This document shows, in pieces, positions 10,074-52,300 of a DNA stretch of 64,000 nt (its first letter is position 1; each line of letters begins with the position of its first letter). The stretch comes from Apostichopus japonicus. Lineage: Eukaryota > Echinodermata > Holothuroidea > Aspidochirotida > Stichopodidae. The notes under the pieces were generated by a model. That model saw only the letters and a program-made list of their open reading frames with translations. It was not told the origin of the DNA and searched no databases. The position numbers were made by a program, and so were the translations under genes. Location of the stretch: positions 43,903,611 to 43,967,610 of the forward strand of contig NC_092576.1 of NCBI RefSeq assembly GCF_037975245.1. The letters are read 5' to 3'.

Positions 10074-10239
10074 ATGGGTAATCGTGTTGGAAAATCGAAA
10101 AGTCCGGCAGCGAAGCAGAAGGGCCAAAGTAGTAGCAGTACTCATCGACCTCCTTCTCCTCCTTCTCCTCCATCTCCTCCTGTTCATTCTGCTTCTACTC
10201 CAGTGACGTCACAAGAGGGTCAATCACTCAGTATGGAGG
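10074..10239 (+). CDS. NLR exon 1: N-terminal proline-rich leader, possible myristoylation signal
   Basis: Codes 55 residues plus one base. It begins MGNRVGKSKS, followed by Lys-rich and Ser-rich residues, then three SPP repeats (RPPSPPSPPSPPVHS), an SH3-ligand-like stretch. The start lies in a good context (CACTATGG). A donor G|GTCAGT at 10240 leaves phase 1. Joining to 'AA' at 10969 makes a Glu codon and keeps the NACHT exon in frame, which is the main reason for the call. The 5' splice acceptor of this exon may be at 10065/10066 (ACAAG|GG) or 10052/10053, after a T-rich tract. Gly2 with small residue Gly6 and following lysines fits the N-myristoylation pattern; this is inference. Confidence 0.65.
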
Positions 10240-13200
10240 GTCAGTATAATCAAGTTTTTTTTCCTGTTCTTAAAAAATAAAAATTAAAGGGGATCCGAGA
10301 AATAAACGTAATTAAGTTCAAGTCCCTTAAACCCTTATCAGTGATGATGAATCGATTATTATAATATAGTAGTAAGTTCTTCCTCTTTTCGTCATTTATC
10401 GCAGGCGGGTCTTATCAGCTTGCAAATACTATGTTATAAAGGTCATTGCACTCTCAACACTTATGTAGAAACCCCTGACGTCATAATTAATACGTTGCCA
10501 AGACAACCGTTTCCGACATTGGCAATATATTTAGACATTCATTGATGATATGAATTGTTTAATATTCGTTGATTAATTATAACGTCACAAATCGTCTGGT
10601 GAGATAGTTTCGTTCAAACCGATGATGTACTGATAATTTAAGTAAGACTTTACCTGCGTTCTTCCTTAAGCACCGGATAACAAACTGTGGGAGTAAATGT
10701 TTTATTGTTCAACCATTTCAAGTTAGTTAAACCATCTTAATATTTAAATGCTGATATTATATTTGTATTTGTTCATATTTAGATTCTGTGGCAAGTTATT
10801 AACAAATCACTAAGAAATTTCTCGTCCATGTTTCATTCTCACGCTGCGAGTCGTGCTATCTCGGAAACATTGTTTTCTCAATCAAATCGATTGAAACCAA
10901 AACGATGTGTGCCGCTCAATTGATTATTTATAGTTTAATGTCACTGTCTGTTATCATTATTATTTTAGAAATGAAGAAAATTTACCTCGCTGCCCTTAAG
11001 GGTATTTACAAAGAGCAGTATGACGCTGTACAACCCGTTCCTTACATCAAAGACAGACTCTACTGTGTAGACAGGGTATTCGTCGAGGGCGGTATACAGG
11101 TACTCGCTGGGGATGGAAGATTCCTTAAACAGGATGAATCATGGAGACGGTTAAAATCATACAAGAATGTATTTACTGATTCTGAGCTGAGAACAACCAG
11201 ACGTATATTAGAGGGTGAACCTGGGTATGGTAAATCAACTCTGACCCTGCAACTGGCATATGATTGGTGTAATGGGGTTAAAGATTCCCCCCTCTATGGG
11301 GTAGAGAATCTGATCGTTCTCAAGTTACGGCAGATGGGTAACATTAAGAAAATAGATCGAGCTATCAAAATGTTCCTATTGTCAAAGGAACCTCGTATTC
11401 GAAGAATTGACATTAATAAAATAATGGAATCATTTTCTTCAACTGTGATTATACTGGACGGTTATGACGAATATCCGGACAGAGACAATGACGCAGGAAA
11501 TGACGTAGGAAAAATCATCAGGTTCACGAAACTAAAGGATGTGGATGTTACCTTGACAACCAGATACCTACCAAAGAACTATTCAAAATCAAAGACGAAG
11601 AGAGTAAAGTTGACTGGGTTTGATGAGATCTCTCGAGATGAGTACATCCGTAAAGCTGTAACCGGACCAAATGATGAAGCTGCAGTTGATAAAATCAAAC
11701 GAGCTCTTAAAGAGAATGCCCTCCTGGATGACCTCTGTCAGGTTCCTCTCTTCTTCGTCATGTTTTCTCACATCACTCATGAAAGTGATATTTTCCAAAA
11801 GTTTAACACTCTCACTGACTTCTTCATGTACATGATCAAATGTTTCCACGATCACCAGAAGAACAAATCCTTGGATGAAAACACTTACCCATACATGATT
11901 AGATTCGAGACTCATTATGAAGAACTCTGTCAAATAGCCTTTGAGGGACTCAACAAAGCACAACAACAGATTCTGTGGGGAAAAGATGTCATGTGTAAAC
12001 GACTTGGTGAAGCATTATATGCACATTATGTGGCAATAGGTATTTTAGTAGAAGAAGCAGTCTTTGATGCTACAGACGGACAGATGAAGATCATGGTCAG
12101 ATTTTATCATAAACTATTCTGTGAATGGTATGCATCATACGTCCTCATAGATGTAGTTTCTGAGGCCGAGACTCCAGCTGAACTATCACGTGCTCTCAGA
12201 TACCTGGATCCGTTTGACCTCCAGTACTTTTATCGATTCGCCTGTGGAATCAACGGTTCAGTTGGAAGTAAAATCATCGACTACTTGAAGAGCAGGAAGG
12301 ATGGCGATAAGTTTGCAATACTCTGTATCCTGGAGAAATCTGGTGGCGTTGATGACATCAAGGGGACCGTTAGGGAGATCTGCTCTAAAATAGTTTATAT
12401 CAGGGAGGAAGACAGCAAGCTGCTACAGAGGTCTACAGTACAGCTACTACAGATAGCATCGAGTCATGACGTAAGTAATTATACATATGACGTACGCTAA
12501 GCGTTTATAATGCAACTCCGTTTAAGACAGAAAACCTGTACACCTTATTTTATTAAATAGGATTGTGTTTGCCTGTTTCAGCTAACAATCCAGTTTGTTA
12601 TATTAATTCAGTTACTAGGAATGCGTGAACCGTTTTGGTAACCTGGTGACGTGATGATACCATGAAACTACATCGATTGGTATTTTTTATTAGTTTCCCA
12701 CAGCAGGCTCACCATACGCTGTAATAATGTGGATTAAAGTAGCTTGATGTATTCTTTTACAATGTAACAGAGACGAGGTAAATATCTGTTTTGTCCCTAC
12801 GTATTTGTGATTACACAGTGTAAGTTATAGTATGATGAAATCTACAGACAGTGTTATAAAATATAACAGACACATATATCATGTCAGTATTAACAACATG
12901 AAACAACGTAGAAATACTTGATAGGAGAGATGTTACAAGATAAAGATAAGTAGGCTTGAAAACATACAAGCAAACCCTAACCATTATTATAACGTTACAT
13001 TGCAGTATCACGTGTTCATTATGAACAACGGATATTATACTTGATTAAAGGCTACTAATCTGACAGAGGTGATGTTATTTATTCATCAAGTGTCGGTGTC
13101 TGAGTGAGTCGTAATTAACACAAATGTGACACGACCTCCCGTTATACGCAGCCGAGAGTATCACTGTTTTTACTAGTTACACACCCCATGACACATCAGA

Positions 13201-16200
13201 AACATACATCCCCGGTAGCGTAGTTTTTCTTTCCTAGGACGAATAAGGGCATCGGCCAATCAAATCCCTGGATTCCAAACATGTGACGCTTTTTCAAAAA
13301 ACATGTTCTGAATCTTTTTTCCTAGTTTTGATCCTAGATTATGAACGACAATCCTTCTTTTTCTGAGGAACTGAATCCCTAACCCACTTTCTAAACCCTA
13401 ACTCTGATTTCAAACGAATTTGTAAATTCCTGAAAAACCTGAAACCCTTATCCGTCCTGGGAATAAAAATTAGGCCCCCCGGTATGACATAGTGACATCA
13501 TCATTTGCCTAAGAAATATTAGCATTAACCTAAGTGATGACACTTTCCTTAATGTATAGTAGACTATTAAACAAACACAAAAGGGGACAAATCATTTATC
13601 TCCAAAAGTTTCAAATGTATCATTAATTAGAAAATGAGTTGGAACCCTGCAGACTGTAAGGAAATATAAATTTATCATGAAGGTAATCGTTCCTATAGCC
13701 CTAGTCTTCATTCAACATTCGTCATCTGTAACATTTGTTTAGGAAGTGCGCCCTCTATTTAATCGATCAGTTGATATATTCGAGGATTTGAATATTCATA
13801 TTTACGAAAGCGCCGTTTTCCTTCTTTATTTTTGGATTAAAAAGGACATTTATTTGTGTTTTCCAACTAACATTGGTTAATTTAATAATCTATATAAGTT
13901 TCATGTAATTTGGTACAGTAGAAGAAACGTTTGAAGAAGAATAGCAAAAGCCTAAACAATTTAAAACATTTGGACGCTTCCTTTCACCAGTACACTCACA
14001 CAAAACACCTGTTCTCAAATTCAAACAAAGGCGCACAGTATAAACGTTGATCATCTGCACACGTAGACGTACGTAAAGATTCCCGCAGGGCGAGTCACGT
14101 ATAAAGTAGGGTACACTCTGTGTCGTTCGGTACTGCCCTTTGGCCGTGACGTTTTGTATCCCGCATGGCGGGTCACGTAAAAAGCACTCTGTGTGGAGAT
14201 TCAGTTCGTTGCTAGTTACACACATGTATAACGTTGCTAGTTACACACATGTATAACGTTGTACTGTACGAGTGGTAATGGAATTACACCGCGTATGGTT
14301 TGTTGTTGTTATTGTATTGACTTACGGTAATTACAGGCCTATTTAAAGTCATCAATTATAGGCCTAGTCATGCTTCAGAGATTTTGTCTTATTTGTAAGA
14401 TTGGTCGTTGCATGAATTCCAAAGGTGTTACTTCTTTAGGATAACATTGTCTGTCTGATTTGACTGTTTTAGCCAATAATTCATTATTGGCGTTAAACTT
14501 AGGCCTCTTGGTTGACGTGGTAGCCTAACGTTAGTTGTAAAAAAAATGTAGGTAGGCCTATAACAAATAACGTTAGATTTTTAAGGAAAATAAAATGTAG
14601 CAAAGAGTTTGTGATCTGATACATTTCACACGCGTAGGCCTAGGCTACGTCTTAAACACGTCACATGATACCGGACAGTGTCTGCGTTACATTCACGGTA
14701 TCAAGTGTTTCATTATCAATGTGTTAGCCTTCGTAATGTAACGTTAGACTTTAACCGTGAGCTACGGCTAGTATAAGATTCTCTTACCGGGAAAAGTAAG
14801 AGCTTAGAATATAGCAATATATTTAGCCTGTATATCCTCCGTCAGCCTTTTTTATTTTGTTTTAGTTATTGTCTCAGTCATAAGATTAGCTTCCTACTTT
14901 ATCCTAAATAAATTATATACTGTAGAGTGTGGGCCTAAATAGACAAAATAGGTAAAGTTGGTAGCAGTAAGGATGGATGTTTCTAACGGATCTAGGCTAG
15001 ACATAGGCTTACACTGTTACAGTAGGTCAAAAGTGAGAGATCAAAACAATACAGGTAAACGGTATCAAAATTTGGGGCGAACATTGAATGGGAAAGTAAA
15101 ACCCAATGAGTCTATAAAATAACATAATACGATATGACGGTAGCTTCGTTCATACTGTTTAGGCTTAAGCTATGTTATTTTAAACCGGTCCGGCTATATC
15201 TGCCTACGATACTGGTTTGTCGGTCAGCTGGCAAATGGAAGTCTTAGAGATGTACGACACGTAATTAATATAGCTCTATATAATTTTTGCGTAATTGCAA
15301 TGATTGGAAATTATTTTATTTTATTATAACGAAATTGATTGCAAGTAGGGTATAGGTCTATACGATAAACACACGTATCGAGATGCGCTGTATCTCCCGT
15401 GAAGGAAACTCATTTGTAGCGGGCCACTTACGGCAGGAGCGTTGTCGAGTCTCCGCTAGTGTGGGCTGTAAGAATTAATTAATGCACTGACTGACTGGAA
15501 TAAAACAATAGCATACATTATGAAAACTACAGAAATATTTAATGTATGTGCTAAATATAATATTACAGACCAAATATAAATATTTAGATATTGTTTTTTA
15601 CTTTTATCTGAATTTCTTCAGCATACGAATATTATTTTAATAAATTCATTGTTATATCATGCTTTTTTTAATGGTACGTTTGGCAAGCAAGTTTGAATAA
15701 GCCATCACTCATTCTTTTCTTTTTTATCAAATAACTTAAATGTAATACAATTCCTAATATTATGAACATTAAAAAAATAAGAAATCAGACAATTCTGTGT
15801 TAAAAATAATAATTATTAATTTTATAGCTTTTTAAGCTTGTGTTTGTTCTATTTCATATACGTTGGATATTCGTCACGTGTATTTATCCATCATGGATGA
15901 ACTATAAGATAAGTTAACTGTGATCTTTCTTTCCTATTCTTCAGATTCCAATATCTCATCTAAGCCTAAAATGGTCCTTCAGTGGATTTGACGGTAAAGA
16001 TATCAGACTTGAGTCCGGTCTTAGTTTATCGAGCCTATCATCAGTAGAGAAGATATCCATCAATGCAGGAACAAAGAAACAAGAATTTACAGAGGAAGAA
16101 GTGATCGGATTAATAAACTATGGAATCAAGTCACCAAGATTCAAGGAACTATGGTAAGAGGAAAACATCTTGTCAGGCCTTGACTGATAATATGTGGGTA

Positions 16201-19200
16201 AGAGGGGGAGGAGGGGTAGTCAGAGGGCTTGCGTATGGGGCATATATGAGGGGATAAGGTATCAGGCGCGTATCCAGGATTTTCTAACCCGGGGGGCGCG
16301 AATTACTATCTAAGCGGAGCGCCACCATCGGTTGGCGCGCAGCGTACAAGAAAATTTCTGGTTTTGATACCACCCAGATCACCGGAAATGGTACTTCTCG
16401 GCCTTGAAATGACCAACCAGATGTACACTTTTGCCTGAGAACCAAGTATTTCCCAATAGTTTTTTTTTTTCCATCCATAACCTTTTTGAATATTGTCACC
16501 AGTCACAAATCATGTTTGACCTCATCGCATGACCTGTGGATCATTGCTTCTGTAGGTGATTCTACGTCGCGGCCCACAATATCCGTCAGCCCCACTTTTC
16601 AAGGTTTCAAGCCCATTGTTTGTTGAGAATTTGAAAATTCACATTCTCACTTCAAAAAATACCCATAATGTCGCACAAAATTTCATCTATGGACAACCAA
16701 TATAGAAAAACCTCCATCAACCCCTAACAGACCGGTCAAAATTGCATAGCTCCCAACTCTTGAGAAGGCAAAAGCTGGTCCATGCCACGAATCGCCGTCC
16801 TGGGGGAGGGGTATAAGGGGAGGGGGTGTCCTCCTCCCCTTTTGAATTTTTTTGGAATCCTGGTGATGCCTACATGTAAAATGGTGGCACTCAGAAAGGC
16901 TTTTGACACCAAAAATTTTCTGAGAACTATGCATTTTTTTGGTGTGTAACATCAATAAATTGAATAGTAGGTGATAATTCATTCTTTCCCGTGGCATGAA
17001 AATGTTCGCTGCTCGCCCCAATGAAAAGAAATAGAGGCTAACTTGAGGTTCAAATGATGCTGTAAAGGAGGTTTTATACTCTATTATGCTAAATGCTTAA
17101 GCAATGATGGTTGCTAAGTCAAAATTTAATGCAATTTTTTTTTATGTATACTTGACAATTACAATGTGGGTTTTTCGGAAGCTTTCGCGGGTCAGCGGGT
17201 TTGGGTGTTAGAATGCGGGTCCAACCCGCGAATTGCGGGTCAGTTGGGAGCTCTGAAATTGCACGAGTAGAGGGAAGTGTGATGAAGAATGATGGTCAGA
17301 AATTTTCGAAAATTCAGACTCAGTTAATTTATTGGTGTAGAAATATTGCAACCTCTTATAACGGCTATTATAAAACTCCGAAACCGGACACTACACACAT
17401 AGGCGTAAGAGGCGAGGGGTGCAGTCCCTAATTCTCCATGACTAATGTAAAATATAGTTTTGACATAATTGGACCTCCATGCTTTTTCTCCATCTGCATA
17501 AGACATTTCGTTGTTTACATTATCATCCCGACGGACCGTACGGTACACGGTGGCATGTAATGTAGGCTAACAACCGCTGCTTGCTTATATGATATTGACA
17601 TCAACACGTTGAACGCGCGCGGAGCGCGCGAAAATTTTTGGTTATTTTTTTCGGGCAAGTCGGACAGTTTTGAGGCTGTTCATCCTGGAACGCCATTTTC
17701 ATGCTCACTGATATGATGTGATATCTGCTGTTTGCTTTACAAATTCGAACACCGGGCGCGTAGCGAGGAATTTGCCAAGGGAGAGGTGATGCCTGTAGGC
17801 AAAGTATCTAAGTGTTGCGTCACCATAAGTTGGCGCGATGCGTACAAGAAAAGTTTGGCCGAAAATCCCTCCCAGGTCGCTGGAAATGGCACTACCCAGG
17901 ACCATTTGTTGGCGCGAAGCGTAAAAGCAAATTTTGCCGGAAATGCCTCCCAGATCGCTGGAAATGACACTTCCCATGCCTTGTAAGTTGCATCTGAGCA
18001 CTTTCAATTTTGAAATTACTAGCAATATCATAAAAAAAATATGCTGAAGGGGGGGGGGCGGTCGCCCCCTTCCCGAAATGCGTAATGTTCCCCGACGACA
18101 CGGTCGAGTTCGAGACCAGCCACAGTTGGTTTCATAACACAATTCTACAATTGTTTAAGGCATATATACACACACGCGTTATGGTAGACCATATATAGTA
18201 TATTGATCACAAGTGAGAGAGGGAAAATGGAAACGTCAAAAATTGAGTTGTCGGTGTAAGGGGTAGGGTGAGGCACACGCCCCTTCCGAAATCCTTGATC
18301 CGTCACTAGCTACCCTGTGTATATAATAGGGATCAGCGCTGTAATAATGTCACTGTTCCTCTTTCTCTTCCCGGTGTCTTGGCGTTTTTCTTATCTCCCT
18401 CCTTTTCTCCCTTTTCTCTCTTTCTTCTTTTTCTTTTCTCTTCCTTCCTCTCCTCCTTCTCCTCTTTTTTCCCCCTCTTTTTTCTTTTTTCTTCTCTTTT
18501 TTTCTCTCCTCTTTTTCTTACCCGGGGGGCGCGCGCCCCCAACGCCCCCCCCCCTGGATACGCACCTGGGTATGGTAGTGTGCAGTGATATTTTTATTCT
18601 AGTTAAATGAACACGTCCTGTGTTGAGACGTGCGGTTTGAAATGTTGCAATATTTGGGAAATATGTTGATGTTTTATTCCATTACTGATTGTGTAGTATA
18701 CAGCACATCGTAAGGCTTTTCCACACATGATATAACAAAGTGATGTTGGTTGGGGGGGGGGGGTGCTTTTCAGTATAATTGGAACAACAAATAACCTTAC
18801 AACTTAAAATGAACCAGAACTACCAGAAACCAAAATTAAGTATTACTTAAAAACTGAAACAAAAGATGGTAAGAATTTCAAGTACATGGAAAACGAAATC
18901 TGTTATCGTTTATTTTCAAATACTACTAGTTGTAATAAAATGAATGATATTTGCAAGAGTCACGCAATTTTTATTAATAAATAGAAATAATTAAAAATAT
19001 CAAATCATCAAATGTTTATAGAAGGGCGTAAGGAGGTGTGGTGGAAGAGTTGTTTGGTCGTCATAACTAGTGACTGATACTTATAACTTGTCAACAGCTC
19101 TATTACCAAAATAAAGGAAAAGGCAAATTCATTGACTTCTATGTTATTTATAACAATGATGACATCAGATATTCATTTAGTTTATAAATATTATATATTT

Positions 19201-22200
19201 ATTTTCCCTGCTTTCTTTACCTTTGAAGGCTTGATAACTGTAAACTGCCGTCATCGATCAAGCCAGACATCATACCAGAAGAATCAAGATCAAGGAATAT
19301 TAAAGGTACGAGTTTTGCATAAGAATTAAACAAATTATTGATCAAGTAGATTGCTTTTATTGCAATGTTTCACAGATTTTGGAAAAGAGAGGGAAGTGTG
19401 GTAGAGGGGGGATGGGTCTGGGGGAGGGGGAGGGGGACTAGTAAAATGAGATAAATGTTGGTAAGAATTAATCTAGAATGGGGATCGGAAGAAAATCTTG
19501 CTAACAACAAACAGACTAGTCCTGTGTGGGGGTTGGGGTGGAATGGGGGGTAGGGGCGTGGTGTTGGAACTTCCTAAAAGTTCCTCCTCCTTTTGTGTTT
19601 CTTGAGCTTATCTAAGCAGCTTTCTATCAAGTCACTATATATATATTAAAATAAAATCTATGAGATTTTAGTGTTTTGAGTTACTTAATATATTATTGTT
19701 ACCCTATAAAATAAGGACTGTGAAGTAAGCCGGAAGTATTAGGTAACAAATGGAATACAATTATTGGTTGGATTACTAGTGACTGTTAATTTCTAGTACT
19801 TTATTACTAATTAATTAGTAGATATGCAATATCAACGGTTAAGTTTACTGATATTTGACCCCTCTAGTACAGGTACATTTACTTTGACTGTTAACATTAT
19901 AAGTATGTGAAAAAATATTGAGTCTTAGGTATTGTTTAACAATTGTCATTTATTTCTATGATAATTTATTAATTTATGATTTCATCTGTTTTTACAGTCA
20001 TATCATCGAATGAAGCTCGTTACCTTGATCTGATATCTGGTACATGGAGGAAGGTTTGTAATATTTTATATTTTTAAGTAAATTATGATCATTAATAATG
20101 TTAGTTGTTTTCACATTTCCCTGTGATACTGTTATTATTAGTAACATGCATAACAGTGAAGGGGTAGAGGGGTGGATCAATTTTCAAAACATAATAAAAA
20201 GCCAGCATCCTTGAGAGTTAAACATATATGTCTCCTGGTGTGGAATATTCCGGTGAAAGACGATATGATTCTTACAGGCAAGAAAACTATATTCCACATT
20301 CCTAGTCTTTAATATCTTGTTCTTAACTCTAGATACATTTATTTGGAGCTGATTAATTTCATTATTCCAGGAAATGTATCTCGGTTGAAATCGTGTAAAG
20401 TCATCATGTCGCGTGTTCTTTAAAATCCTCCTTTGTTTTGCTGGTTTTCTTTCTTCTATTATCCTTGGGAAATGTTTGTACTTTTTTTCTTTTTAAACAT
20501 AATTAAGATTAAAAGGTCACATAATCTTACTTTTCCAGAAGCATTCATTAAATTTAACTATATTAAAAAAGAAACTTTTTTATACCCATTAAACCTAGTT
20601 TGAGAGATTCACTGTGCAGGAAGTCAAACATACACATTTAAACAGTCAACATTAGCTAATTTAAAACTTAGTTTTTAAATATCTGCTGAATTAACCAATG
20701 TATTAATCTACATTATTAACACACCAAATTTCATTGTCTCCTTAACTCTTCAATTTTACATTAATATTATTATAGTTAATAATTACTATTTATTTATTTC
20801 AATAGCCTGATGACATCCAGACTATAACAGAGATGTGTTCAGATGGTTTGGTCATCCACAGAGACACCAGTGAGTCTGTACAGAGGTCAGTCATAGAGTT
20901 CCTGGTGGAAGCATCCAATCATGACGTAAGTAAAACATAAAGGGATATATCGAATAAATACATCAATTAATACAAGTTAAAATTAGATCAAACCGTTGAA
21001 TGTCTTAAGAAGAGATTAGATCGCTTAAGTTATTAAATATTAAACTGTTTAAATTAGAACAAGGAAATACAGGTTCAAATTGATATATATTTGTAAGCTC
21101 AAGATAACACAGAACCGTAAATGCAAAATATAAATAAATAAAACAAAAATAATAAACTACTGGATAGTGTGTGTAGGTTAATAAACAAATAAATAATCAT
21201 TTTGAAATTCTTTTTCATGGTGTTTATCCAACAAAAGTTCTGTTCATCTTAGTTTTATTAATTATATTTTTCAAAATCTTCCCAGAAAGTGAAGTATAAA
21301 ATAATAATTTAGGACAAAAAGGATCAATGAATTGTTTCCTGTTTTACGGATTCGACCAAATATTTTCCTTTCGTTTAAGTTTACATTTACATTAAAACAG
21401 AGGTAAATGAAGTGATTGATAAACATACCTTAGTAGTAGAATACCTCAAAAACAAACTGATACCTAAATATAATTTTTTGGAATTTACAGTTCATTGAAA
21501 ACCAACCCCACCTTAACCTGTTCTACCCATCACAAATTACATAAATAAAATAATACATATTAGTTCCGGCTCATATTACCCCCCCCCCCCTCCGCCATCA
21601 CTCTAAAAAACAAATTACATTAAATATGTTAAAGCCGTCTGAATGCTCCCCCACCCTCAAGCACCACTCATTACCCCTACCACACCCATCCCTACCCAAT
21701 ATGACACCCATCGGTCCATTTATCACTCACCCCTCGCACACCCTTTGATAATAACAACATAACATTCACGAGGGTAAACCATATCCACCCCCCCCCCCCG
21801 CACTAAGACACCCTCCTAATACCCGAACTAAATATCACTTAACCTTATCACACCCTTCCTTACCATAACACACCCCTCCCTACACCCCTGACATCCCTTG
21901 TACCGTCCACCCCTCACCCCTCTTACACACCTTTAATTCATTCTACAGAAATAACAATGACTGATCTCTGTTATAAACCTAACCCTCTTGTTTGCCCTTT
22001 AACATTTTGCAATAAAACAAACATAAAGCGAAGATAAAACAAACTTTACAGATAAAATCATCCAATTTTTACAAATTCAAACCACTAATTATTAAATAAT
22101 TAACAAAACTATAACAAAATAAGATTAAAATAAACATTATTATTTGATTAATATGAAATTAAAACAGTAAACTTAATATTCCTAAATTAATTATAATGTT

Positions 22201-25200
22201 ATTATTTTCGAGTATTTATCCTGTAAACAGACATGATGATATTAATTCTATTTATTATTTTCCTTTCTTCAGATTCCCATATTCCAGGTGGATCTAACCT
22301 GGTCCTTTAGTAAGATTGATGAAGATGGGAACATTATCCTCTCCTCTGGTCTCTCTCTACCAATCATAACATCAATAGAGATTATGTACATACAGACAGA
22401 GAAAGGGAGAGAAATGAATAAACATGAAGTTAATGGAATATTAAACTATGTACAACACTCTCAAAGATTCAAGCAACTGGAGTAAGTATAATTAATAAAT
22501 ATGGTCATACAGACAGAGAAAGGGAGAGAAATGAATAAACAGGAAGTTAATGGAATATTAAACTATCTACAACACTCTCAAAGATTCGAGGAACTGCAGT
22601 AAGTATAATTAATAAATATGTAAAAAATATTAGTAATTAATAAAATAACTAGTTAATATTAATGGTGTAAACAAGATAGGAATTATTAATATAGTTATAT
22701 TTAATAATTACTGTAGGTTTGTTGATAGGTTTAGATAATTGTAGATGTAAAACAAAACAAATGAAGAAGAAAATGAATAAAGAAATTAACAAACAATGAA
22801 AGAACAGTCATCAGGTAAGGAATATGATTAATGAGAGAGTAAAATAGAGACAAATAGAGACAGAAACACTTAAACAATTGAAATTTATTGAAATAAGGAG
22901 ATATAAGCCCTAGCTTAAAAGTAAGAAAACAATATATCTGATTGAAACATATAACAAAAAGTAGGATGTAATTAGACCAAGATATGAGGAATCAAGAATT
23001 CAAGTTATCATCATCTTAGAGTATGAAAATATACGTTTTGCCAAAATCTACCTAAAATAAATAAACACAAACTTTGATGAGTTAGATTAACAGAAAAATG
23101 ATAAGGAGATAAACTAGAAAGAAAAAACAAATAAAGTTTGTCATACTAAAGGTAAACACTTTCCTCTTTTCTTTATCAGGAGAAAATTTTATTTAATTAG
23201 ATTATAAATGAATGGATAATTAATGAACATTTATATTAAAGTAAAAACAAGACAGTGGTGTAAATTAAATATTGTAATTGGCTGCATCTATTAATATGGC
23301 ACCTCTCTCAACTGTACTACCCTAAGCTTTCCCTAATCAACCCCTCGCCCCCTCCCCAGCCCCCACCCCCACAACCAAACTATGCCAGACCACCTACCCC
23401 ATTTCGTTAATCTATGTTTATAGCACTTGGGAACTTACCTTGTTAACAACACCCCTGCCCCCCAACCCGCCACACTACCCCCCCACACACACTAACCCCC
23501 ACACACACACACACGCACACACGACTACTCAGCAAAGTCTCCTGTCATACTATTATTGTTCGCCTCTTCTGATCAACCTGTCGTCACCTCTTCCACTCCA
23601 ACCCCCGCCCCCACCCCTTGACTGACAACACTAGGTATATGCATATTATTAGCCCACATAACAGTACAGTCAATCCCCACACAGTAGAGACCATTAAAAC
23701 AGTATAACTGTAAATAACACTCAATATCACGTATATAGTTTTTCTCTTCCGATTCTCATTGTTTGCAGAATATACTAATATATAGAAACAAACACAGTAC
23801 ATGGATCTGTTTAAAGAATAATCTCTAAGATTTTAATGTAGATCCTTACTAACATTGCAGTATTCTTCTGTCTACCAAACAACCCCCCCCATTTTCCCAA
23901 CCCACCACCCTCCCCACCCCACTCCCCAATGCACCCTCCCTCCCAAACCTACAAGGCCAATAGCCCTGATGTTATCTCTATATACTCTACAGTGTGTTGT
24001 TGTCACCATATTCTCATTTGTTAAATCTAACCTGTCATATATACTCAATACTGTACACATTTATATCATACATTTGTACGTTAAAAAAATTCCACTCTTT
24101 TCTACTCAGAACACGTTTTATTTTATCGTAAAGTCTATTGAACTTGTTTCATCATATTTTTTCTTACTAAAGATGTACACTGACTGTACTGACACTTTCA
24201 ATAGTTTAACATTTTCTTTTGTTCAACACCTGTCAATCAAATACTTGAACAATACAATGAAAGAAGTTGTATTCAATGGAATAGACGCGTGCGCCTTCCA
24301 ATGAAAAGAAGTTGTGTTCAATAAAAGAGACGCGCGCGTGCTTTATAAAAACACCTGGAATTTACTGACAAACAAGTACCTGGATATTGCAATAAATACG
24401 TCACGTCTAGACACTGTCTGGTTTTAAATCTTTGGAAGGCCATGCATGATATTGACCCTAAATTGTGAAGATATTTCTATTTTTCTAAGTTACATTTGTT
24501 TATTGTTGTTTTTCTTCCTTTTGAGAAACAAATAATTATATAAGAAAGGATAAAGAGAAAATATAAGGGATGTATGAAATTAATTAGAAAGAAAACTAAA
24601 GGGAAACAAGTGTATAGGGAAAATGAAAAAAAAGAAGATCAAATTGTGATCAATCTGTAAAATATTTGACAGTTATTATACATACTTATTTTATAATTTG
24701 TTTTCATATGCACTAAAAATTAGTAAATGTTTAATTTTATACTAGTTAAGAACTAGGAAATTCCCAAAACAAACAAACCAGTCTCAGGAGTTACTGACTG
24801 TGATAAAGCTGTTCACTTTAAGTACTGTTACTGGAATTATCAGCAACAAACATCACATTGTGAATGAAGTTGTGGGCGTTCATGGATATCACGAATGGGG
24901 GTAAGGGGGAGGGGTTGTGATGGGAATTGGAACATAAATTATTGACAATACAACTTCACTACAGTTGTTAGTAAAATATTTCAAACTTGTTTGAATAAAG
25001 TGCTGGGTAACTTTCCTGCCAATCACCATGTCCTTTCTGAGAGTCCGTAATGGTTCAGACCTAGACAGTCTAATCTACGACATTATTTGAATATATGTAA
25101 AACATTACTACATCACTGAATGATAAAAAATAATCATGTTAACACTGTTTCTTAGCAAACTTGAACATTATGGAATACAGGGAATTGTTTATACTAGGCG

Positions 25201-28200
25201 AACTAGTTATTTGTCTATACTTGGTGTCATAAAGTCTTTAAACAAAAATTAACTTCCATGAGGGTTTTAGATTGGACAATAATTATTTATTTAAAACGGA
25301 AATAAATATTTGCATATTTACTAGCATATTCCCTCCTACATAAGTTATAACAATGGACCCAAGCCCTTGTAAGCAAGATCGACATAGCATTAAAAATTAC
25401 TTCATCTTTCAGACCTGTTTTAATCTCAATCCGTTAATATAACACGAACACATCTACCGCACCTAACCTTGTTCCATCCACCCCGTAACTACTCCCTATC
25501 TAGACCCTGTAATATATTACTTCCTTTACCTCCTTCTTTCCTTTTGCACAATAAGCTGTTTCCACAGCCCTCCCCACCTTACTCTAACCCCACCATGTTC
25601 CAATTGTGTTTGAACCACCATTCCCCTTCCTGCTGATATGTTAACATTTTTACAACGCCATAATTTATTTTCATTACTTATGTATTGGACCTTCGTTACC
25701 AAAAGGAAGTTTATTTCATTATTGCGATTGTCCATTATGTTTGTACTTTTATTTTTATTCATCTTTTACAATATCACCCGCCCCCCCCCCCCACCCACCA
25801 TGTTCGCCTCTAGTGAAAAAACGATCACAATCATTAATTTCATCCAGATACGACTGCCTCACCATACTCTGAAAAGTGTATCCATTGTTAGGAGTCATTG
25901 GCTACTATTATACTATCGTACGGTGATCACGCTGTATCTAATCACACAGTGTGTACATCTAACATCATACATCTTGTCAATCGCGGTAATAAGTCACGTG
26001 ACTAAACGCGTAACTGATCTGTTGTTCTGAAGGTCATTTTGACAAGTACTTAATCTGTCTCTATTTAACGCCACACGATGTTTGGAAGAAAACGATGCTA
26101 ACTACTAACATCTTATACGATTTCATTAGGCCTTCTATTATATCGAAAACGATCTTAATACATTGGGGGAATATGGTTCAATCGGCGGGTTTTTGTATTC
26201 TGCCAGGGAAGAATAGGAGCACATTTGTTTATAAAAATATTTCCTTCGCACCTGTAAGATAACATAATATGAACATTGTGTGTAAATGAAAAATCCAAAT
26301 AACTGAGACATACGCGTTTAACAACAAGTTACGATTGGCCGAAGAACATTGCACGAATAAAATTATTCTGTAAAATGACTTCGTAGGGGAATAAAGGATT
26401 TTACGTTACTTTATAAGCTGTGCTTTATTCATTGGTTTCAGGTAATTGAATTTACATAAACACACTAGGTCATTATGATGGTAGCTTTAGTGTACATATG
26501 TTGAAGGGAAACCATTTGGGGATTTCAGATTTAAATTCATTGTTAGGTTTGTGTTATTATTATTATTTGTTAACATGTCAAAAAGAAACCGAGAGGTCAA
26601 ATGAGCTGAGTAAGTGGACCGTATAGCAGACTGAGGATTCCCCCCACCCCTCCAGTTCGTCTCGTAAAAAAACCTGTATATATGTGTATTCACTGTGCAT
26701 CACTAGGGGTTAGGGTTAGACTTAATATATTTATGAACCGTATTTTCACATTAGACTACTCACTGTTCACGCAGTTTAAATGTTAGGAGCTCTCTACGTT
26801 TGTTATTGTATTCAAACTTGTGGAAACTAAAACAAATGCACGGTCATCGCATCCACGATCGTACATATATTCGTGAGGAGAGGCTAAAATAAACCTTTGT
26901 TGTGTTTTTTCTGTCTGTACGTCATTCCTATACGTGCCTAGAATATCGAGGTTGTACATTACTTATGAAATCACAAGAAATGATATTAAGATTTTCCTAA
27001 AATCTAACTGAAATAGCGCATATCACATGTACAGACATCCACATTATCGTAGGTCTAATTTCATTTTGGAAGTGGAAACTTTCAGCGGGAGGGAGGGTGG
27101 GGGAGGGGGGCGGTCCTGTTTTTATTTAATGGAATTGTTGAAAATAAGCCGGCACTTTCAGTAACTGAAAAACAAACATCAAGACAAAGCTAATCTTTGC
27201 ATCATGCACTGTTATAACATTTTCTTCCGCCAGGTAGAGTTGAATAAAATGTTTGATTATACATGGGCAGGGTTAGTCTTTTAAAACTGCAATAGCACGG
27301 TGCGGCATTTGAGCACTTAAAGAAAGAGTGTTAGTGGGGAGGGGTGGGGGTTGGGTCTGGGAAGGAGTTAGAAACAAGGTGAAAAGAATAGCTTATACTA
27401 TTATATAAATATGTATATTAATTGGTGGAGCACTTTATGAAGTAATATGTTCATATGTTATGTTTATGAAGAAATATGTTTCCCATTGAGAGCGCTGTGT
27501 CATAATGGAACCATTTCTTTTGTGATTCTTAAGGATTCGGATTTATAGCTTTGCCGTTTTTTCTAAAGCTACCATCATTTACAAACTCTTCATTCTCTGG
27601 CTCATTTAACCTTTTTTTAACGTTCTCCTATCTTAACCAACTGATAGGGATTGAAGACAAGCAAATGTTTAAACGTTCATATGTTCATCAGAGAACATTA
27701 CATTGCATTACGGTCCGGATAACGTAATGTAAATTTGCGATGTTAATTAACGATACATATTAAAAAAATAGTTGACGCTTGGGCGTGTGTGTGTCCGTTT
27801 TGTGTCGCCCAGCTTGTAAACACGACATCTCAAGAAGGGAATGTCGGACCAATTGCATATTTGGTGTGTAGAATTACCACAATAATTATAAGAGGCCTAT
27901 TGTCTTTGGTGGAGGCCACAAGTCATTTGGGGTCACCAGTGGTCAAATTTTGAAAACATTGTTAACACAATATTTCAAGAAGGGAACTTGTGCATACCTC
28001 ATATTTGGTGTGTAGAAGTAACACATTTAGTACAAGAAGTTTGTTGTTGTTGGTGGAGGTCAAATGTCATTTGGGATCACCAGAGTCAAATTGTGAAAAT
28101 CTTGTAAACACAATATCCCAAGAATGAGAGCTTGAACAGACCTCATCTTTGGTGAGTAGAATTACCACATTAATTTGAAGAAGCCAATTGGTTTTGGTGG

Positions 28201-31200
28201 AGGTCACAGGTCATTTGGGGTCACCAGGGGTCAAATTGTGAACACCTTGAAAACAATATATCAAGAAGCGAGGCTTGGGCAGATCTCATATTTGGTTGTA
28301 GATGTACCCAATTTAAGAAGCCTACTGTATTTATTGCTTTTGATGGAGGTCATAGGTCATTTGAAGTCAACGTGCGCCAAACAGTTACTTTGTTCTCCTC
28401 TTACCTGTCTCTCTACACTAACACACCTTACGAAACAAATTACAATTACGGGCAATACAATATACAAATACGGGCATGACAATACCGGGTCGAATACTCG
28501 ACTTGGTAACAGTTGTTCAAATACATGATCAAAGGAAATGTATCGATTGGAGATCGTAAAGAAAAACTCTGAAAATCAGTAGAGAAATTACCAAATGTGT
28601 ACGAAGAGTAAGTTCGGTCCTTTCAAATTTTACGAAAGATCCAGCAAAACACTTTCGAAAAATTTACGCGAAACTGGCATATCGTGCTAAATGCAACTAA
28701 TGTCATGTAAACATGGCTCTAGTACACCCATTTATGATAAACCGTAAGACCACATCTGGTGTTAAGCGGGGGGGGGGGAAGAAAGTATTTTCTAGAATTT
28801 CCAAAAATACGGAAAAAATAAGGTCCTACCATAGTTACAGTAAGTGAATAGCAAATAGCCTAACCACCTCGTCTGTTATGGATCTTACGTAACTACAAAA
28901 ACAAAACTAATTGTATTTTGCGAACTTGACGTTTTCTACAAGAACATGGAAATAATGTGTAGCATTAGTTAATCATGCCGTGTGACCTAAAACATATTTT
29001 ATTACAAGGTTTACTTTCATAAAGATGGCCATAGCTTGATATCTTGTGCTGCGTGTATGAACTGTGCCTCGTGTATCATGGGGAATACTCCATAAAACGT
29101 TTCTTGGAAATGTGCCAAAAATGTTAACAAACAGGTGTTAGACAGGGGATGAGCGCACAGTTGTTTGGCAAGTTACCTGGGAAAATTCTGAGCACATGTA
29201 CAGTATCCTACCGCAGTATTTAAGTTGGGTTAAACCGTACTGCAGTTGTAAAGTGATGTACGTTTAGTGCGCGCTATTCATTGTTAGGCAGTCTAGAAAC
29301 GGGGCTTTGCCGAACGTTTTTTGTTTCATAATATCGGAGGTTCTGTAAGTTCAACTTTTTAAAGATTGTAAGACAGATTAAATATCTTTTCATTTTATAA
29401 CATAATATAGCTACGCTAACTTGTCATTTAAAAATTTTCATCAGTTTCGTGACAATTTAAATTAAAAAAGTTGTCAGTATTTTGCATCCTCAAGTGCGAA
29501 TTTTTTTTTATCGCCAGACACGCAAAAATTTCCTTTTCCTTTTCCAGGGTCTTCGCTCCACCAGGGCCCTAGTCCGGTCCCCTGGACCCCACGCCTTTAT
29601 GCTCGCACAATATGCGTGCTCGGCGTTTTCTCGCGATTTCGCGAACGTTTAAACGTTTAAACGAACGAAAATCGGCCGTTTAAACGTTTAGGTCTTTAAA
29701 CGAAAACTCACAGCCCTAGAAACAATATCGCAAGGGAAGCTTGGACAGATCGCATATTTGATATGTACTTGTACCAGATTGAGTACAAGAAGCCTAATTT
29801 TGTGGGTGGATGCCAAGGGTCGTTTGAAATCAACAGGGGTCAAATAGTGGAGGAAAAAAAAATAACACAATATTTCAACAAGGACAGATGCCATATTTAG
29901 TATTACAGTTAGTACAAGAAGCCTGTTGTTGAGGTCAATTGTCATTTCAGGACAGCCTGTGTCATTTTGAATTTATTGTTTGTCACATAACACTGCTTTT
30001 CAATGTATTACTTAGACCAATACCAAGTATGTTGTACACCATCAATATACATTACGGTACGTCAGATTCATAAAGAAAACTGCTCAAACTGTCACATCAT
30101 CGAAACCACAATGCATCTTTGTATTCTGGTTATGTTTTTAGCTTAACGATGTATTGTTGAAGACGTAATGAAGGTTCATATCTAGTTTTATTTGTTTGTT
30201 GGCTTATTCGGGGGTCTGCTTATACGTTTGTGAGATAAACAAAACTCGCAGAAAATTAACTCAGCAATTTACAATTATATTCAAACGAATTGACAGGGAA
30301 AAAATCGATGTGATACTTGTTCTATGACGATTAATTCAAAATCCTCTTACTCTAGAAGAGATCACCCAGACCTCCTATATTCTCACCCCAAATATGCCCT
30401 CCCCCCTCCCTCCTTTCAAGCACCCTAGAGATATTCCTTCTATTTAAGGTATGTTGAAAATGATCGGTTATTTTCAATAACTGATAAACAAATATAAACA
30501 AATGGATAAGGTAAGAGCAAATCATTGCATGATTTACATTTTGTTAACTTTCTTCCTTCAGATAGAGTTGGAAAACATGTCAGGTCAGGTGACTATCTGT
30601 CTGTTTGAACAGGAATAGTGTGGTGCCGTTTATGAGCACGCGACAATGAACGGAACAGGCCGGGTGGGGAGGAGGGGGAGGGGTGGGGGTTAACACGGGT
30701 TGAAAAGAATGAAACAGAGCCGTACTTCAACTTATCTATTCACTGCTGCCCCACTGTAATTATTTATAACAAGTTTCCGATTGAGGCTCGATGTCTCAAT
30801 AGAACTTGTTTAGAGACTTTTGGATTTGGAGTTAAAATTTTGGCCTTAAAGAAAAAGCATCCATGATACCGCTTTAGTTGTTTTCAAGCTTTTCGGTAGC
30901 CGGTGTGTTCCTGATCCTTCCAAGAAACGGCTGTTACAGAGGGAGGGACTACTTTTGATGTAATGCGTTCATTTGGTTAATCTTTGTTCTGCAGTATCAA
31001 AAATAGTAACAATTAAAGAAGAATGTAATGGCAACTGACTGATTCTCTTTCTTTCTCTGATTTTAGCCTACAAGACTGTCTGCAGCCCTCGATACCCGTC
31101 GGACCATCTCTATCCACACTGAAATCTCGGGGAGTGAATGGTAAAGTTCTTACTTATTAATCACTTAATGACTCATGTGTCATGTTGTTTACAGTTCGAA

Positions 31201-34200
31201 CCATTCCCGTAGTCGACATTTGATTGGGTTTTAGTTCCAGTAAAACTGAGGGCGCCATATCAACGGGCGACATTGTTTGTTGTAGTAAACATGGACAGAT
31301 ATTCATGAGTCAGAAATTTGGGAGATATCAATCACTAATTGATGTTGTATAATACAGTGTATAGTGTACTTTGCAACAGGTAAAGTTAATTCGTTTTTTT
31401 TTTAAGTGGGACACTGCAAATGTTGCTATTTCATAACGAAATCTCGAAATTTCGGCTAAAATTCTTCAATTTTCAACTGTTTAATCATAAAGTAGTACCC
31501 CTGAAATGTCGACTACTTTCACAACAAGTCGACTAATTCATCTAAATTTTGACGTTTTTGGAAACTCTACTTGTTTATTATGACCGTAAATACGTTTTTA
31601 ATTAAAGTTTATCATTGGAATTGTGAAATTGTTGACAAAAGTTTCTTATAGACCCATCTATTAAATTTGACTTCTATGTTAGACTGATAGATTCTGTAGA
31701 TTCTGTCAAAAAGTTGAGAAAAGTCGAAACACGATGGATGAAGAAACGTATAGAAATCAACTCACACCATTACAGAGTTGCGACTAATGATCCAATTGTA
31801 TGATCTAGCACTGCCTTGTATTGCATCCTTTAGTTAAACATACAACGAAGGGCAGAAGATTAATTATGTGTCTTGCAAAACACATATTTTGAAAAGTGTT
31901 GGTATCCGCCCTTTGACCTGGTATTGTGCTATGAATACACGGCTATGAAAACGCTGAAAGTAATGACAAACACTATAAGATGGTTTCCAAAGTAAACAAA
32001 ATGACACATGTATTGCAACATCGTTAAAACTTTAACACTCGCAGACTAATATAGTGTGAGGTGTATGTGAAATAAATGTCTATTATTTTCCTAACGATTA
32101 ATATCTTTCCTCATCAATGGCGAGATAAAGGTACTCTATCTTTATATACCTGATGTATCGGAGTGTGTGATAGATATGCTTCGTGTTCATAACGGCCGAT
32201 ATTCAAGGTATATGTACAATGACGTTAAGGGTTTGAGAATTGATGGAATGGTAATCACTCGCAATTCTAAACAACTATTGAATATAGGTCAAATATTGCA
32301 GGAAAAAAAAACAACAAATTACAGTTTTAAAAATGTGTGATGATCTTATCGTATAACATTGAACAGATTTATAGTTTATTAAATATTTCATGGTAGCTGG
32401 GTGCTAACCAGGGACTGGAACGGATAGGGGGATTAATTGGGAACATCTACAGTTTGTTGTTTATAAAATATATCCTCAAGTGTAGTTTACCAACAGTATG
32501 TCTGTTTTCACCATGCTCTCCAAAACTACTTTTCTAAAGAACATGTGACACCATGACAACCACAAATATCATCAGCGAAAATAAATAATATGCATCCCTA
32601 GCGACAACAAAGATCTTAGTAAAACGTAATATGGTTGTTTCTATTGTGTATTGGTCAAAATGTTTCATTCACTAATACATCATTGATAATTTTGTATTCG
32701 TTAAAGCCTTAATATTGTTTGTTAATCTTACAGTTTTCTGGATTCCTGATTCTGCTAAGTATGATGAACAATATAAGCTTGATCTCGGTTCTGGTCGTTG
32801 GCGAGTAAGTAATCATTACATCTCCTGTATAATAATTATTTCGTCATATTTGTTTAAATAACATATCGATATTGTAATTACTAGCAGGAGCATCGAGATA
32901 CCACTGACATGGTACTTGAATACCCCAGATGTTTAAAATTTAGCGCACGTCACTGTGATAGCATGGCATAGTCAAAGTAACGAACAGGAAGTGACGTCAT
33001 CGGATGAACTAACTATAAATGTGATATATCAATAACTGTTTCATTGAGTCAAATGTCGGTTACCAGTTGATAGTTGCTGACATATAATTAAAAACAGAAA
33101 TTAGTGACATTTCGGGTGAGCAGAGACAAGTGAGGAAAACACGCTGAGTGTTTGGATGAAAGTTAATAGTAAGAAATATTTATAAATATGCAATAGGTTG
33201 ATTAAAATTATGTAGTTTACAAATATTACTGAACATACACTGAGTGGACTGAAGGGATGTAGTCAACAATTATAATTAAACATACAATGGGTGGGTTAAC
33301 GTGATGTAGTCAACTAATAATACTAACACACAATGAGTGGATTGGAGGGATGTAGTCAAGAAATATTACTAAACAAGCAATAGGTGGGTTAAAGGGATGT
33401 AGTCAACAAATATTACTTAACATACACTTAGTTGATTAAAGTGATGCAGTCAACATATAATATTAAACATACAATGGGTGGATTAAAGGGATGTAGTCAA
33501 CAAATATTACTAAAGAAGCAATGGGTGGATTAAAGGGATGTAGTCAAGAAATATTAGAAAACATACATGTGTGGGTTAACGTGATGTAGTCAAGAAATAT
33601 TACTAAACAAGCAATAGGTGGGTTAAAGGGATGTAGTCAACAAATATTACTTAACATACACTTAGTTGATTAAAGTGATGCAGTCAACATATAATATTAA
33701 ACATACAATGGGTGGATTAAAGGGATGTAGTCAACAAATATTACTAAAGAAGCAATGGGTGGATTAAAGGAGTGTAGTCAAGAAATATTAGAAAACATAC
33801 ATGTGTGGGTTAACGTGATGTAGTCAACAAATAATACTAACAAGCAATAGGTGGATTAAAGGGATGTAGTCGACACATATTACTTAACATACACTTCAAA
33901 ATAAAATAAAACTGTTGGCAAACTGCATATCCACCAGAGAGCCTGTATAAAAGTAAGTTGGCCTGCCGTTTCGATCCTAGCAGGATCTTCTTCAGAGGCT
34001 AAATGACAAGTACAGTGACAGAAGGGACAAAAAAATGTACAGAAAACAAACAGGTTAATGAGCACGGTGAACACAATGAGATAGATGAAAGGGGATTATA
34101 AGTAGACAAGGGATGGAGAGAAGAAAGCAACAGGGGAAGAGGAGAGGTAGGAGATAAACAGTGGAGGGACAAAGAGAGGATTAAAGGAACAGGGTAGGGA

Positions 34201-35667: not shown

Positions 35668-35885
35668 ATGAATTACGCAGGTACATGTTCCTGAAGACGA
35701 TCTGTTCTGATCCCGCTGGAGTTATTATACACCACTCAGTTCATCGAAAATTGCTTGCCCGAGGTTTACACACACAAGTTGGGAGTGTACTGGGAAACTT
35801 CACGGGAATTCGGGTCTCTATAAATAATTGTGACGTTGTTACAACATTGGCCATCGTCGTCTTTAAATATTTCATTTGGCTTTAA
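35650..35885 (+). CDS. NLR last exon or decayed third linker (ambiguous)
   Basis: Acceptor TTTGTCCTGTAG at 35649. In the frame demanded by exon 9 (phase 0) it reads only KAGSW and stops at 35665-35667. In the next frame a 78-codon ORF runs to TAA at 35883-35885 and contains KTICSDPAGVIIHHSVHRKL, resembling the linker exon (TEMCSDGLVIHRD). Either the gene ends with a five-residue tail, or a missed exon or one-base shift separates the pieces, or a later acceptor (for example CTGAAG|ACG near 35698) is used. The shifted-frame end is hydrophobic (LAIVVFKYFIWL). I see no convincing AATAAA in the following kilobase. Confidence 0.35.
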
Positions 35886-49309: not shown

Positions 49310-52300
49310 GTGAGTCAATTTAAAAATTAATGTACGTCTAAAAGTAATAATGTCTCACGACATCCGTTGATGCTTACTGTAGTAGACCTTCTCCGCGGAG
49401 AACGCGAGGCGATTCGGGATTACGGTTAAGTCTCGTCGTGGTATGATTAAAAGCCGCTGGGTGATGGACCAAAGTCTAACAGTTCAAGAGGATAAAGGAT
49501 GCAATTGGGTGATGATTGTTAATATGTATTTACACTAGCTAGTTATACAGTTGTTCTGTGCCTCACACCAGTCTGTGGTTAATATAGTGAAGAGATCTCA
49601 GGTGACAGACCTTACAGTAGAAGCTTCCACTCTTCAAAGTTTCCTAAATGTGATCCTTCTTATTTGAATTAATCTTGCTAATTTCTACATGTATCCTGTA
49701 CGAATCGTACAGCGTGAGTTTATCTGAGTCTAAAGGCCCGGTCACACTAAAGCGATATTATAATGGAATACGGTCCGATTTTTCCGATTTTAGGCCGAAG
49801 AGTGAGGTTTGTGGTAGTGAATGTAATGAATGCAGTGGAATATTCGAATACCTACTCCAAATCTGAGGGGTTCTGGAACGGACTACATTCTGAAGTGATG
49901 TCACATCGATAAAAAAACGATAAAAACGATACAAATCGGAAGAGAAATCGGATAGCTATCCGATAAAAGGAAACGGAGTCAATATCAAAAGTTAGGAGAG
50001 GGCTTTTCCACATCGGAATGGCTCAACAGATAGCAAATCAAGTCCTTTATCACTGTGGCTAGAAGACCCGAATGAAAAACTGGCTGTTTCGATTCCTCCA
50101 GGAAAATCGGATAGTATTCCGGAAAAAATCGGTATAGTGTGACCGGGCCGTAATGCTAACACCGCCGTAAACTAGGGTGCGTCGGTATACCGATATAACT
50201 GGTATTTCACTCATACCGTTAGTGACGTTACTGAAATGATCTGTCATCAAATCTTGGAATAAGTTGCTGCAAAAGGAAAAACATAGATGGGAAAGTCGTG
50301 GTCATAAAGCCGCAAATACATTAGTAGGCTAGACCAGTGCCCATACGGTTCATGCTAGTGTTTGACAGTACAGTTATCGCTGTAAGTAGCGGTTCCACGA
50401 AAATTCCTGGTATACCCGGTAATAGCAGGTATTGGTCAGCGGGTATATCGGTATCTGTTTTTGCTTAAATACCGACGCACCCTATGTATGATGCTGCAGA
50501 TGCCTTGTTCATTTTGTTTTCTTAATAATCAGTTTGAGGGAGGTTTTTGTTCTTTTTCTTAAGTTTGATCATTTTTGGCAATATCAACTTTATACGCAGT
50601 GCTCGGTGGGTTTGGCAAAATTGAACGAATCAGTGCACAATGCTATTGGTAATACACGAGACCTCTCTGTTTTCTGGTCGTACTTTCCTTCAGAGAATTC
50701 ACCTTGTTTAATCTTCTTGTATTTTTTGGCAGTTCATAGAGCAAGGAATCTTAAGCCCAGAGGTAAAGACAGTAAGAGCAGTCCATTTGTTACCATCTGC
50801 CTTGGAAAAGAAAAATTTGCGACCTCAGTGATCGAAAAATCCCAGAATCCGGAATGGAACGAAGACTGCGAATTGTAAGTGATGGCAAGAAAACTATTGA
50901 GTAGCAAAATTATGAATCTGTGAAATCCTATCGAACTGTGTTGATGTGTGTCGTTGAAAAAAACAAATGATTAGAACTTTTGTTGATGGGAGGGAGGCAA
51001 ACAGGTTTGAGCAATTTGTGTGCTTGAGAAGAGTCCCCAAAATGCTGAGTAGTTTTATCATCTGGTATATAGTGAGGACTATATAATACTTGAGTGGGCG
51101 AATGCAATTGGGAGGGTCTGAGTGGGGGGTAAGGCAAGTGGAGGGTTGTTAGAAAATAACAATAGGAAAGAAAATCAGTTGTTCATGAAGCAGGGGAGTG
51201 GGTCAGATGTTAGATTCTCACATGATACAGGGACAGGAAATTAATAGTGAAAATTAGGAATTGGGAAAGATTTAAGAAGAACCACTGGATAAAAGAAACA
51301 CTTTGGGTGAGGGAGGGTGGGGAATGTGGGGTCATTGACTGGTTGTGACTAGTCACTTTTTGGTGTTAATGTTCGGTGGTAAAAAATGACCAGCTCCATC
51401 TAGGCTCATCCCTTGTAAATATCTAAACATATCAGGAGACATGGTTAATGGTAATCAATAATAAACGCTACATACATTACGCACAGTCATTTCAAGTGGA
51501 ACCTGTAACAGGGCAATTTGCCATGAAAAGAGATATTTGATATGGTAAGTTTGTTGGTCAGTGTTAAAGATGTGACTGTTGGGTGTAACGACTGGAGGGC
51601 GACAAGGAATAACGACCTCTGCTCTGTGTGATGCTGTTACAGACACATAAGATGACCATAGAAGGAGGGAAATTACTGGTGTCTGGAGTATGTACAGCTA
51701 TAGAAGTGTTACCAGGTTGCTTGAGATATATGGTAGAGTGGAAATGTTGTGAGGAGATATGTTCGCTATTCTCTTGAATTACTTCCCCCCCCCCCCTCTC
51801 CCTGTTAAGGATTCTGTTATTCTTAGTAACAGTACCTCGCCTCTGTTTGCACATGAGTATACAGAGTTTATCAAGTTTCTCATGGTAATGACCTGTAATA
51901 CATGTATATGTGATTTGAGTCAGCATTCATCCTCCTCTCTCAGGATTGTCCGTCCAAGGGACTCCAAGCTGGAACTGACAGTTCTCCACCAAGATTTCTT
52001 CCTGGAGAGGTTCCTGGGGAAAGTTGAGATCCCCCTCATGGAGGTAGAAGCTGCACCAAAGAGATCAATTAGAGGGTAAGCTCATCCATTTTCCTGCTGA
52101 CAGCCCTGTCCCCCTTTCCCCTTCTCCTTCTCCCTTCCCTTCCTCTACCCCCTTCTCCCTTTCCCTTACCACTTTCCCCTTCACCCTTTCCCCTTCTGCA
52201 CCCTACCTAAATCTGATTTTAAAACTCACTGCTAAAATATGTTGAATGCAAACATCTAGTTGCATAGCTTGCCAGGTAAAATGTAACACTTCCTTCCCAT

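Follow-up and report, generated by a model that had tools for sequence, protein, structure and literature searches.

A candidate leucine-rich-repeat-like sensor built from duplicated four-exon cassettes in an expanded NLR family of Apostichopus japonicus

The gene in the window and its repeating unit

The DNA analysed here is a 64,000-nucleotide stretch of the holothurian Apostichopus japonicus (assembly GCF_037975245.1, contig NC_092576.1, positions 43,903,611 to 43,967,610; hereafter the window), which carries on its forward strand a gene with a NACHT ATPase exon followed by a set of small exons that occurs twice. Pfam recognises the NACHT domain in 10803-12475 (PF05729, E 7.2e-12, 45.9 bits against a cut-off of 26.7), and the part of this exon used as a query in our searches covers 10878..12470. 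Module 1 consists of exon A1 (15945-16153, 209 nt, phase 0-2), predicted to encode two strands resembling those of leucine-rich repeats (LRRs) and the start of a third, exon B1 (19229-19305, 77 nt, phase 2-1) and exon C1 (19998-20053, 56 nt, phase 1-0, encoding YLDLISGTWRK). A linker exon, L1 (20806-20925, 120 nt, phase 0-0), leads to module 2, which is made up of A2 (22273-22481, 209 nt), B2 (31067-31140, 74 nt) and C2 (32734-32804, 71 nt, encoding YKLDLGSGRWR). Each of the seven exons is bounded by an AG acceptor and a GT donor, and together they form a single open frame; our re-reading of the splice signals agrees to the base with the lengths and phases given in a preliminary description of this DNA. 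The same description had noted that the linker motif also closes the NACHT exon; indeed, the last 120 nt of that exon (12351-12470) form a linker-like stretch with the donor GAC|GTAAGT at 12470, and pairwise tblastn within the window aligns it to the linker query at 42.5% identity (E 3e-6; reverse search E 2e-5).

By the same method the A1 query finds A2 at 44% identity (E 3e-11; reverse E 2e-5), and neither B1 and B2 nor C1 and C2 show significant similarity on their own (E 3.2 and 1.2). Because these exons are too short to be matched alone, the kinship of the B pair and of the C pair rests on motif, order and phase. The module had been described as a duplicated, symmetric unit that leaves the frame intact, which is correct with one refinement, namely that the linker belongs to it: the natural unit is four exons, linker-A-B-C, of 120 + 209 + 77/74 + 56/71 nt, running from phase 0 to phase 0, and the first linker of the gene is the terminal part of the NACHT exon. 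Exon A2 is followed by a partial tandem copy of its own 3' half including the donor (22501-22596, with a 117-nt period); the duplication spans 22392-22619 at 95% identity over 110 nt, and the copy lies after a stop between the two and is probably not a usable exon.

The exon boundaries are kept in paralogues. Among 30 A1-type loci, the window's included, the AG acceptor is present in 30, and the exon measures 209 nt up to the GT in 25 and 206 nt in five; among the 20 A2-type loci fetched, AG is present in all and GT stands at 209 nt in 19. Paralogous exons were also found for B1 and for C1, and exons similar to B2 and to C2 lie in the gene at C16:36.33 Mb and in a five-module gene, both described below. 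The window has an unusually placed B1, 3.3 kb past the start of A1; B exons were placed 0.8-1.2 kb past the A1 start in 24 of 29 A1-type paralogues and could not be placed in the other five, and the long spacing (16154-19228) looks like inserted sequence.

The Pfam lists of the NACHT exon contain no death-fold effector domain, and Fisna and B30.2 are absent from the lists of the exons scanned, that is, the NACHT exon, the module rows and a 225-aa peptide running from A1 through A2. One upstream open reading frame (ORF) of 54 aa was scanned, its best match being a phage family at E 0.06, below the cut-off. An open frame upstream of the NACHT exon (10074-10253) begins with MGNRVGKSK, which we take to be a possible N-myristoylation start, and has no match in the paralogous loci compared.

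A large family with a common module order

To see how the unit is distributed, we searched the genome (671.6 Mb in 35 contigs, the window lying on the contig labelled C16), scoring the best 106 of 487 candidates for the NACHT query, the best 150 of 644 for A1, of 645 for A2 and of 226 for the linker. The A-exon matches merge into at least 258 sites, 115 of type 1 and 143 of type 2 (the latter including the window's partial copy); for each of the 42 sites scored by both A queries the two scores are over 10 bits apart, and the remaining 216 are typed solely by which query's list holds them. Linker matches in frames of more than 150 codons (29) were taken as NACHT ends and the 121 outside such frames as separate exons. 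Linker and A sites were then grouped, allowing gaps below 25 kb, with the NACHT places on C16, C7 and C21 (53 of the 106). Since only the best-scoring matches enter the resulting strings, their counts are minimum values and many of the strings lack parts.

Among the matches listed there are 175 gene strings, and 90 of these read exactly module 1, linker, module 2 (1-L-2): 53 bare, 33 with a NACHT end and four with another linker in front. The others comprise 24 with a NACHT and a single type 2 site, 17 with a NACHT and no module found, and fragments or exceptions. Direct reading of the DNA at C16:36.7, C16:37.378, C16:37.391, C7:3.91 and C21:3.80 Mb revealed two A exons with a linker between them in each gene, and a NACHT-end linker in all except C16:36.7 Mb, with B or C not found for every module; in one C7 gene with an incomplete string, such reading uncovered a first A exon absent from the query matches. 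The NACHT exons of the paralogues read are 38-55% identical. In a tree of the modules, a single clade with 100/99 support unites the second modules from four C16 genes; the deep order of the modules from C7, C21 and C12 is left unresolved, the module 1/module 2 label corresponding to one side of a branch in only 20% of bootstrap trees. The match is free of stops at 149 of the best 150 A1-query places and at all of the best 150 A2-query places.

Two local peculiarities may be added. On C7, between 3.09 and 12.33 Mb, at least 17 type 2 A exons have near-identical scores, which suggests a recent amplification on that chromosome, and the first A exon of a C21 gene (L042) has by eye an apparent GC donor, CTCTG|GCAAGT.

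Hypervariable positions on a putative strand face

The sequences of the A exons vary in an uneven manner. We compared 30 A1-type exons, the window's included, out of at least 115 type 1 sites, and 23 A2-type exons, of which 20 were fetched out of at least 143 type 2 sites and three came from the window and the loci L039 and L047. In the A1 set, residues 5, 7 and 9 of the motif IPISxLxLxW are hypervariable, with a nonsynonymous divergence (pN) of 0.48 against a synonymous divergence (pS) of 0.16, and the intervening residues 6, 8, 10 and 12 have no replacements at all (pN 0). The ratio of the two kinds of change, omega, is about 4 to 6 at residues 5, 7 and 9; in the A1 set it is 2.8 over residues 41-48 and 0.46 over the remainder. 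When changes are counted along a tree built from the flanking introns, of which the downstream one aligns poorly (median identity 0.70), residues 5, 7 and 9 have undergone 67 nonsynonymous and 2.8 synonymous changes (P 2e-4) and residues 41-48 have undergone 99.5 and 7.5 (P 1e-4); with the exon tree the corresponding P values are 0.0016 and 0.013.

The A2 set provides a comparison for which residues 5, 7 and 9 were named beforehand, and here again pN is 0.57 against a pS of 0.12 (tree P 3e-4). The triple 5-7-9 is the most variable among 65 such triples in both sets. Sites 37 and 39 of a second strand in A2 show 39 nonsynonymous and no synonymous changes and site 68 also stands out, all three having been picked after inspection, and omega at sites 6, 8, 38, 40, 66 and 69 is 0.06. 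In the B exons (n=27) one codon is highly variable, codon 2, the x of LxNC; the anchor with which these exons were searched, and which found B at 26 of 29 loci besides the window, largely fixed codons 4 to 7.

A number of observations weigh against reading this pattern as a regular strand with selected outward residues. In A1, residues 5, 7 and 9 were initially chosen by eye, the single sites passing 0.05 are only 7, 9, 41 and 43 on the intron tree or 7 on the exon tree, and neither the strand 2 sites (P 0.28) nor site 68 (P 0.17) is significant. In A2, variation at residue 4 and at residue 10 (which is W in 15 of 23 exons) breaks strict alternation; the set 6, 8, 10 and 12 has a pN of 0.107, the inward set having been redefined afterwards, and the remaining sites have an omega of 0.93.

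An LRR-like fold or another

The spacing of the strand-like motifs bears on the fold. In the joined units of the window protein, motifs identified by eye recur about every 31 residues; they begin at residues 15, 46, 76, 108, 144, 170, 200, 231, 262 and 303, giving gaps of 31, 30, 32, 36, 26, 30, 31, 31 and 41, six of nine within 30-32. A profile of the 23 A rows, aligned by hhalign to eight fragments of ribonuclease-inhibitor-type (RI-type) LRRs, places strands and helix in register (P 1e-3), and none of 100 column shuffles of this profile scores as well. The RI-type repeat itself couples an LxxLxLxx strand to a helix with a period of about 28-29 residues.

Set against an LRR are the results of the sequence searches: the curated Pfam LRR models recognise no C-terminal LRR in any of the seven units or 23 A rows, sequence searches of the PDB returned no hits, and a hand-written consensus reached LRR_1 at E 0.07, below the cut-off, being outscored by the unrelated YscJ_FliF (E 0.008, likewise below the cut-off). 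The hhalign probability, moreover, is just 22% for the A rows and 4% for the units, and one of 100 shuffles scored as well as the unit profile. Because Pfam shows no LRR, the PDB searches are empty and the consensus match is below the cut-off, we infer the LRR-like status rather than read it from a database match.

These same results, together with the variability of residues 4 and 10 in A2, leave some room for the idea that the cassette has a different, uncharacterised beta-rich or alpha/beta fold unrelated to LRRs, in which exon A residues 4-10 would form the binding strand. We regard this as unlikely, given the motifs 26-41 residues apart, the helix-strand register with the LRR profiles, and the fact that more than one A2 strand shows alternation.

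Changes in module number

It had been suggested that the symmetric unit, which can be gained or lost without breaking frame, is suited to diversifying an immune receptor, and that a variable copy number in paralogues would support this. Module number can indeed rise. The clearest case is at C16:43.32 Mb, where a single NACHT exon (38.8% identical to the window's) is followed by five A exons, each preceded by a linker, and in view of which we dropped the notion that module number is fixed at two. Modules 1 and 2 of this gene are a tandem copy of about 2.7 kb that takes in the introns, with identities of 72-88% between blocks and a spacing of mostly 2.73-2.81 kb (2.62 kb for the linkers). Their B and C exons were all read by eye, whereas neither B nor C was found for module 3. 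The gene has a stop in the NACHT frame, and one C exon of the tandem pair is out of frame.

Two further loci are candidates for three modules, their third modules having been read in part. At C16:36.33 Mb, the 16 kb read, before which about 4 kb were left unread, contain exons B and C of the second module together with one more linker and one more A exon, but no NACHT in that stretch. This additional linker has lost its acceptor, which reads AC, and neither B nor C of the third module was found in the 6 kb that follow. The putative gene at C16:38.30 Mb reads N-1-L-2-L-2 as a string; its further linker and A exon (401 and 501 bases read) are open and have splice signals, the A exon being 15 nt shorter by our reading. 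A fourth candidate, C16:37.38 Mb, was rejected as a 2-1-2 or three-module array, as its modules are split by another NACHT exon (55% identical) into two genes of two modules each. Nor did we retain a decayed third linker near position 35690 of the window, the score of which was reached by 248 of 500 (L1) and 151 of 500 (L0) shuffles.

In the direction of loss, single-module genes are possible at C12:24.95 Mb, where the 8 kb fetched contain one A exon only, and at C6:10.85 Mb, where 10 kb after the A exon yielded nothing but part of an exon B. After the A exon at C16:40.31 Mb, 10 kb yielded no second one, although a linker match is listed about 16 kb further on.

The cassette can thus be gained, but gain looks rare, because 90 of the 175 strings are 1-L-2 and two of the three examples show decay; two modules are the common state. 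That the family diversifies mainly through gain and loss of the phase-0 cassette seems to us rather improbable: the five-module gene with its intron-containing tandem copy, the three-module candidates and the possible single-module genes speak for it, but they have to be set against the predominance of 1-L-2, the single clade of second modules in four C16 genes, the stop and frame change in the five-module gene, and the third module whose linker acceptor is lost and near which neither B nor C was found. The proposal that copy number diversifies the receptor is accordingly supported in part, as far as gain is concerned; replacements at alternating strand positions, along with gene duplication, are more clearly the source of the family's diversity.

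Other features of the window

Beyond the module exons, the window contains a minisatellite-like repeat array at 33180-34690, with units around GGTGGATTAAAGGGATGTAGTCAACAA, and at 50492-50878 an ORF in which Pfam recognises a C2 domain (E 1.4e-11) and which is probably part of another gene.

Discussion

Taken together, the observations make it probable, in our view, that the gene is an NLR from an expanded family whose sensor is a cryptic LRR-like solenoid with a hypervariable strand face under diversifying selection. The C-terminal part after the NACHT exon comprises two copies of the linker-A-B-C cassette, about 154 residues each, every cassette probably folding as about five irregular LRR-like turns and the cassettes stacking into a single solenoid with parallel strands. 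These strands would present their outward residues, the x of xLxLxW and ELxLxNC, to a ligand; selection would alter the outward residues between paralogues and keep most inward ones, and the receptor, plausibly one with an immune role, would sense the ligand by its strand face and signal to the NACHT ATPase. Relaxed constraint, decay or gene conversion as the source of the hypervariability is a very improbable alternative. In its favour, exchange of sequence among the related paralogues may occur, changes can be overcounted by parsimony, some members are broken and whole-exon omega is 0.91, near 1, in A1 and 1.8 in A2; but it sits poorly with replacement-free residues alternating with much-replaced ones in A1, with the same three sites standing out in A2, and with the almost complete lack of stops among the best matches.

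The proposed NLR sensor has parallels in several known systems. Plant NBS-LRR resistance proteins have hypervariable, solvent-exposed x residues in their xxLxLxx strands, a likeness to the residues singled out here; they differ in having NB-ARC rather than NACHT, canonical LRRs and an independent origin. In vertebrate NLRs the closest likeness is to the exon layout: in the account of NLRP3 drawn on here (PMC6642158), RI-type LRR exons are each 171 bp and encode two 28/29-residue LRRs, a modularity presented as a precondition for alternative splicing. Our gene shares with it a NACHT exon followed by small modular repeat exons with borders inside a beta-strand (as we infer for the A/B border), and departs from it in a unit of four exons and about 154 residues that Pfam does not recognise as LRR. 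The zebrafish NLR-B30.2 family is likewise large, with close to 400 NLRs of which many share a chromosome arm, domains on single exons, variable LRR number and exon shuffling; positive selection acts there on B30.2 and not on the LRRs (PMC4852459), and no B30.2 was found in the exons scanned here. Fungal NLRs with ANK, TPR or WD repeats offer another parallel, combining changes in repeat number with positively selected repeat positions in an NLR sensor, but their repeat copies are highly conserved and no LRR motifs were found there (PMC4986451), whereas the modules here are divergent and span several exons. Among echinoderms, Chiridota heheva has 53 NLRs, 22 of them NACHT-only and one with recognised LRRs, and the portion of that report used here mentions no hidden cassette (PMC8913654). 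At the level of titles and abstracts, our literature search found no mention of a linker-A-B-C cassette.

A more far-reaching view, which we put forward tentatively and hold to be somewhat less than an even bet, is that these genes correspond in animals to the resistance genes of plants, forming a large, seemingly NACHT-only NLR family with a hidden LRR-like sensor made of phase-0, five-turn cassettes, with hypervariable strand faces and a cassette number changeable by tandem duplication. If so, the missing recognition domain of an expanded animal NLR family would be supplied and its likely ligand-contact residues pointed out, and the family would give an opportunity to test whether an animal NLR diversifies through substitutions on a strand face and, by a second route, through the gain of cassettes. 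Should the arrangement be general in echinoderms, many NLRs now listed without a sensor would in fact have one.

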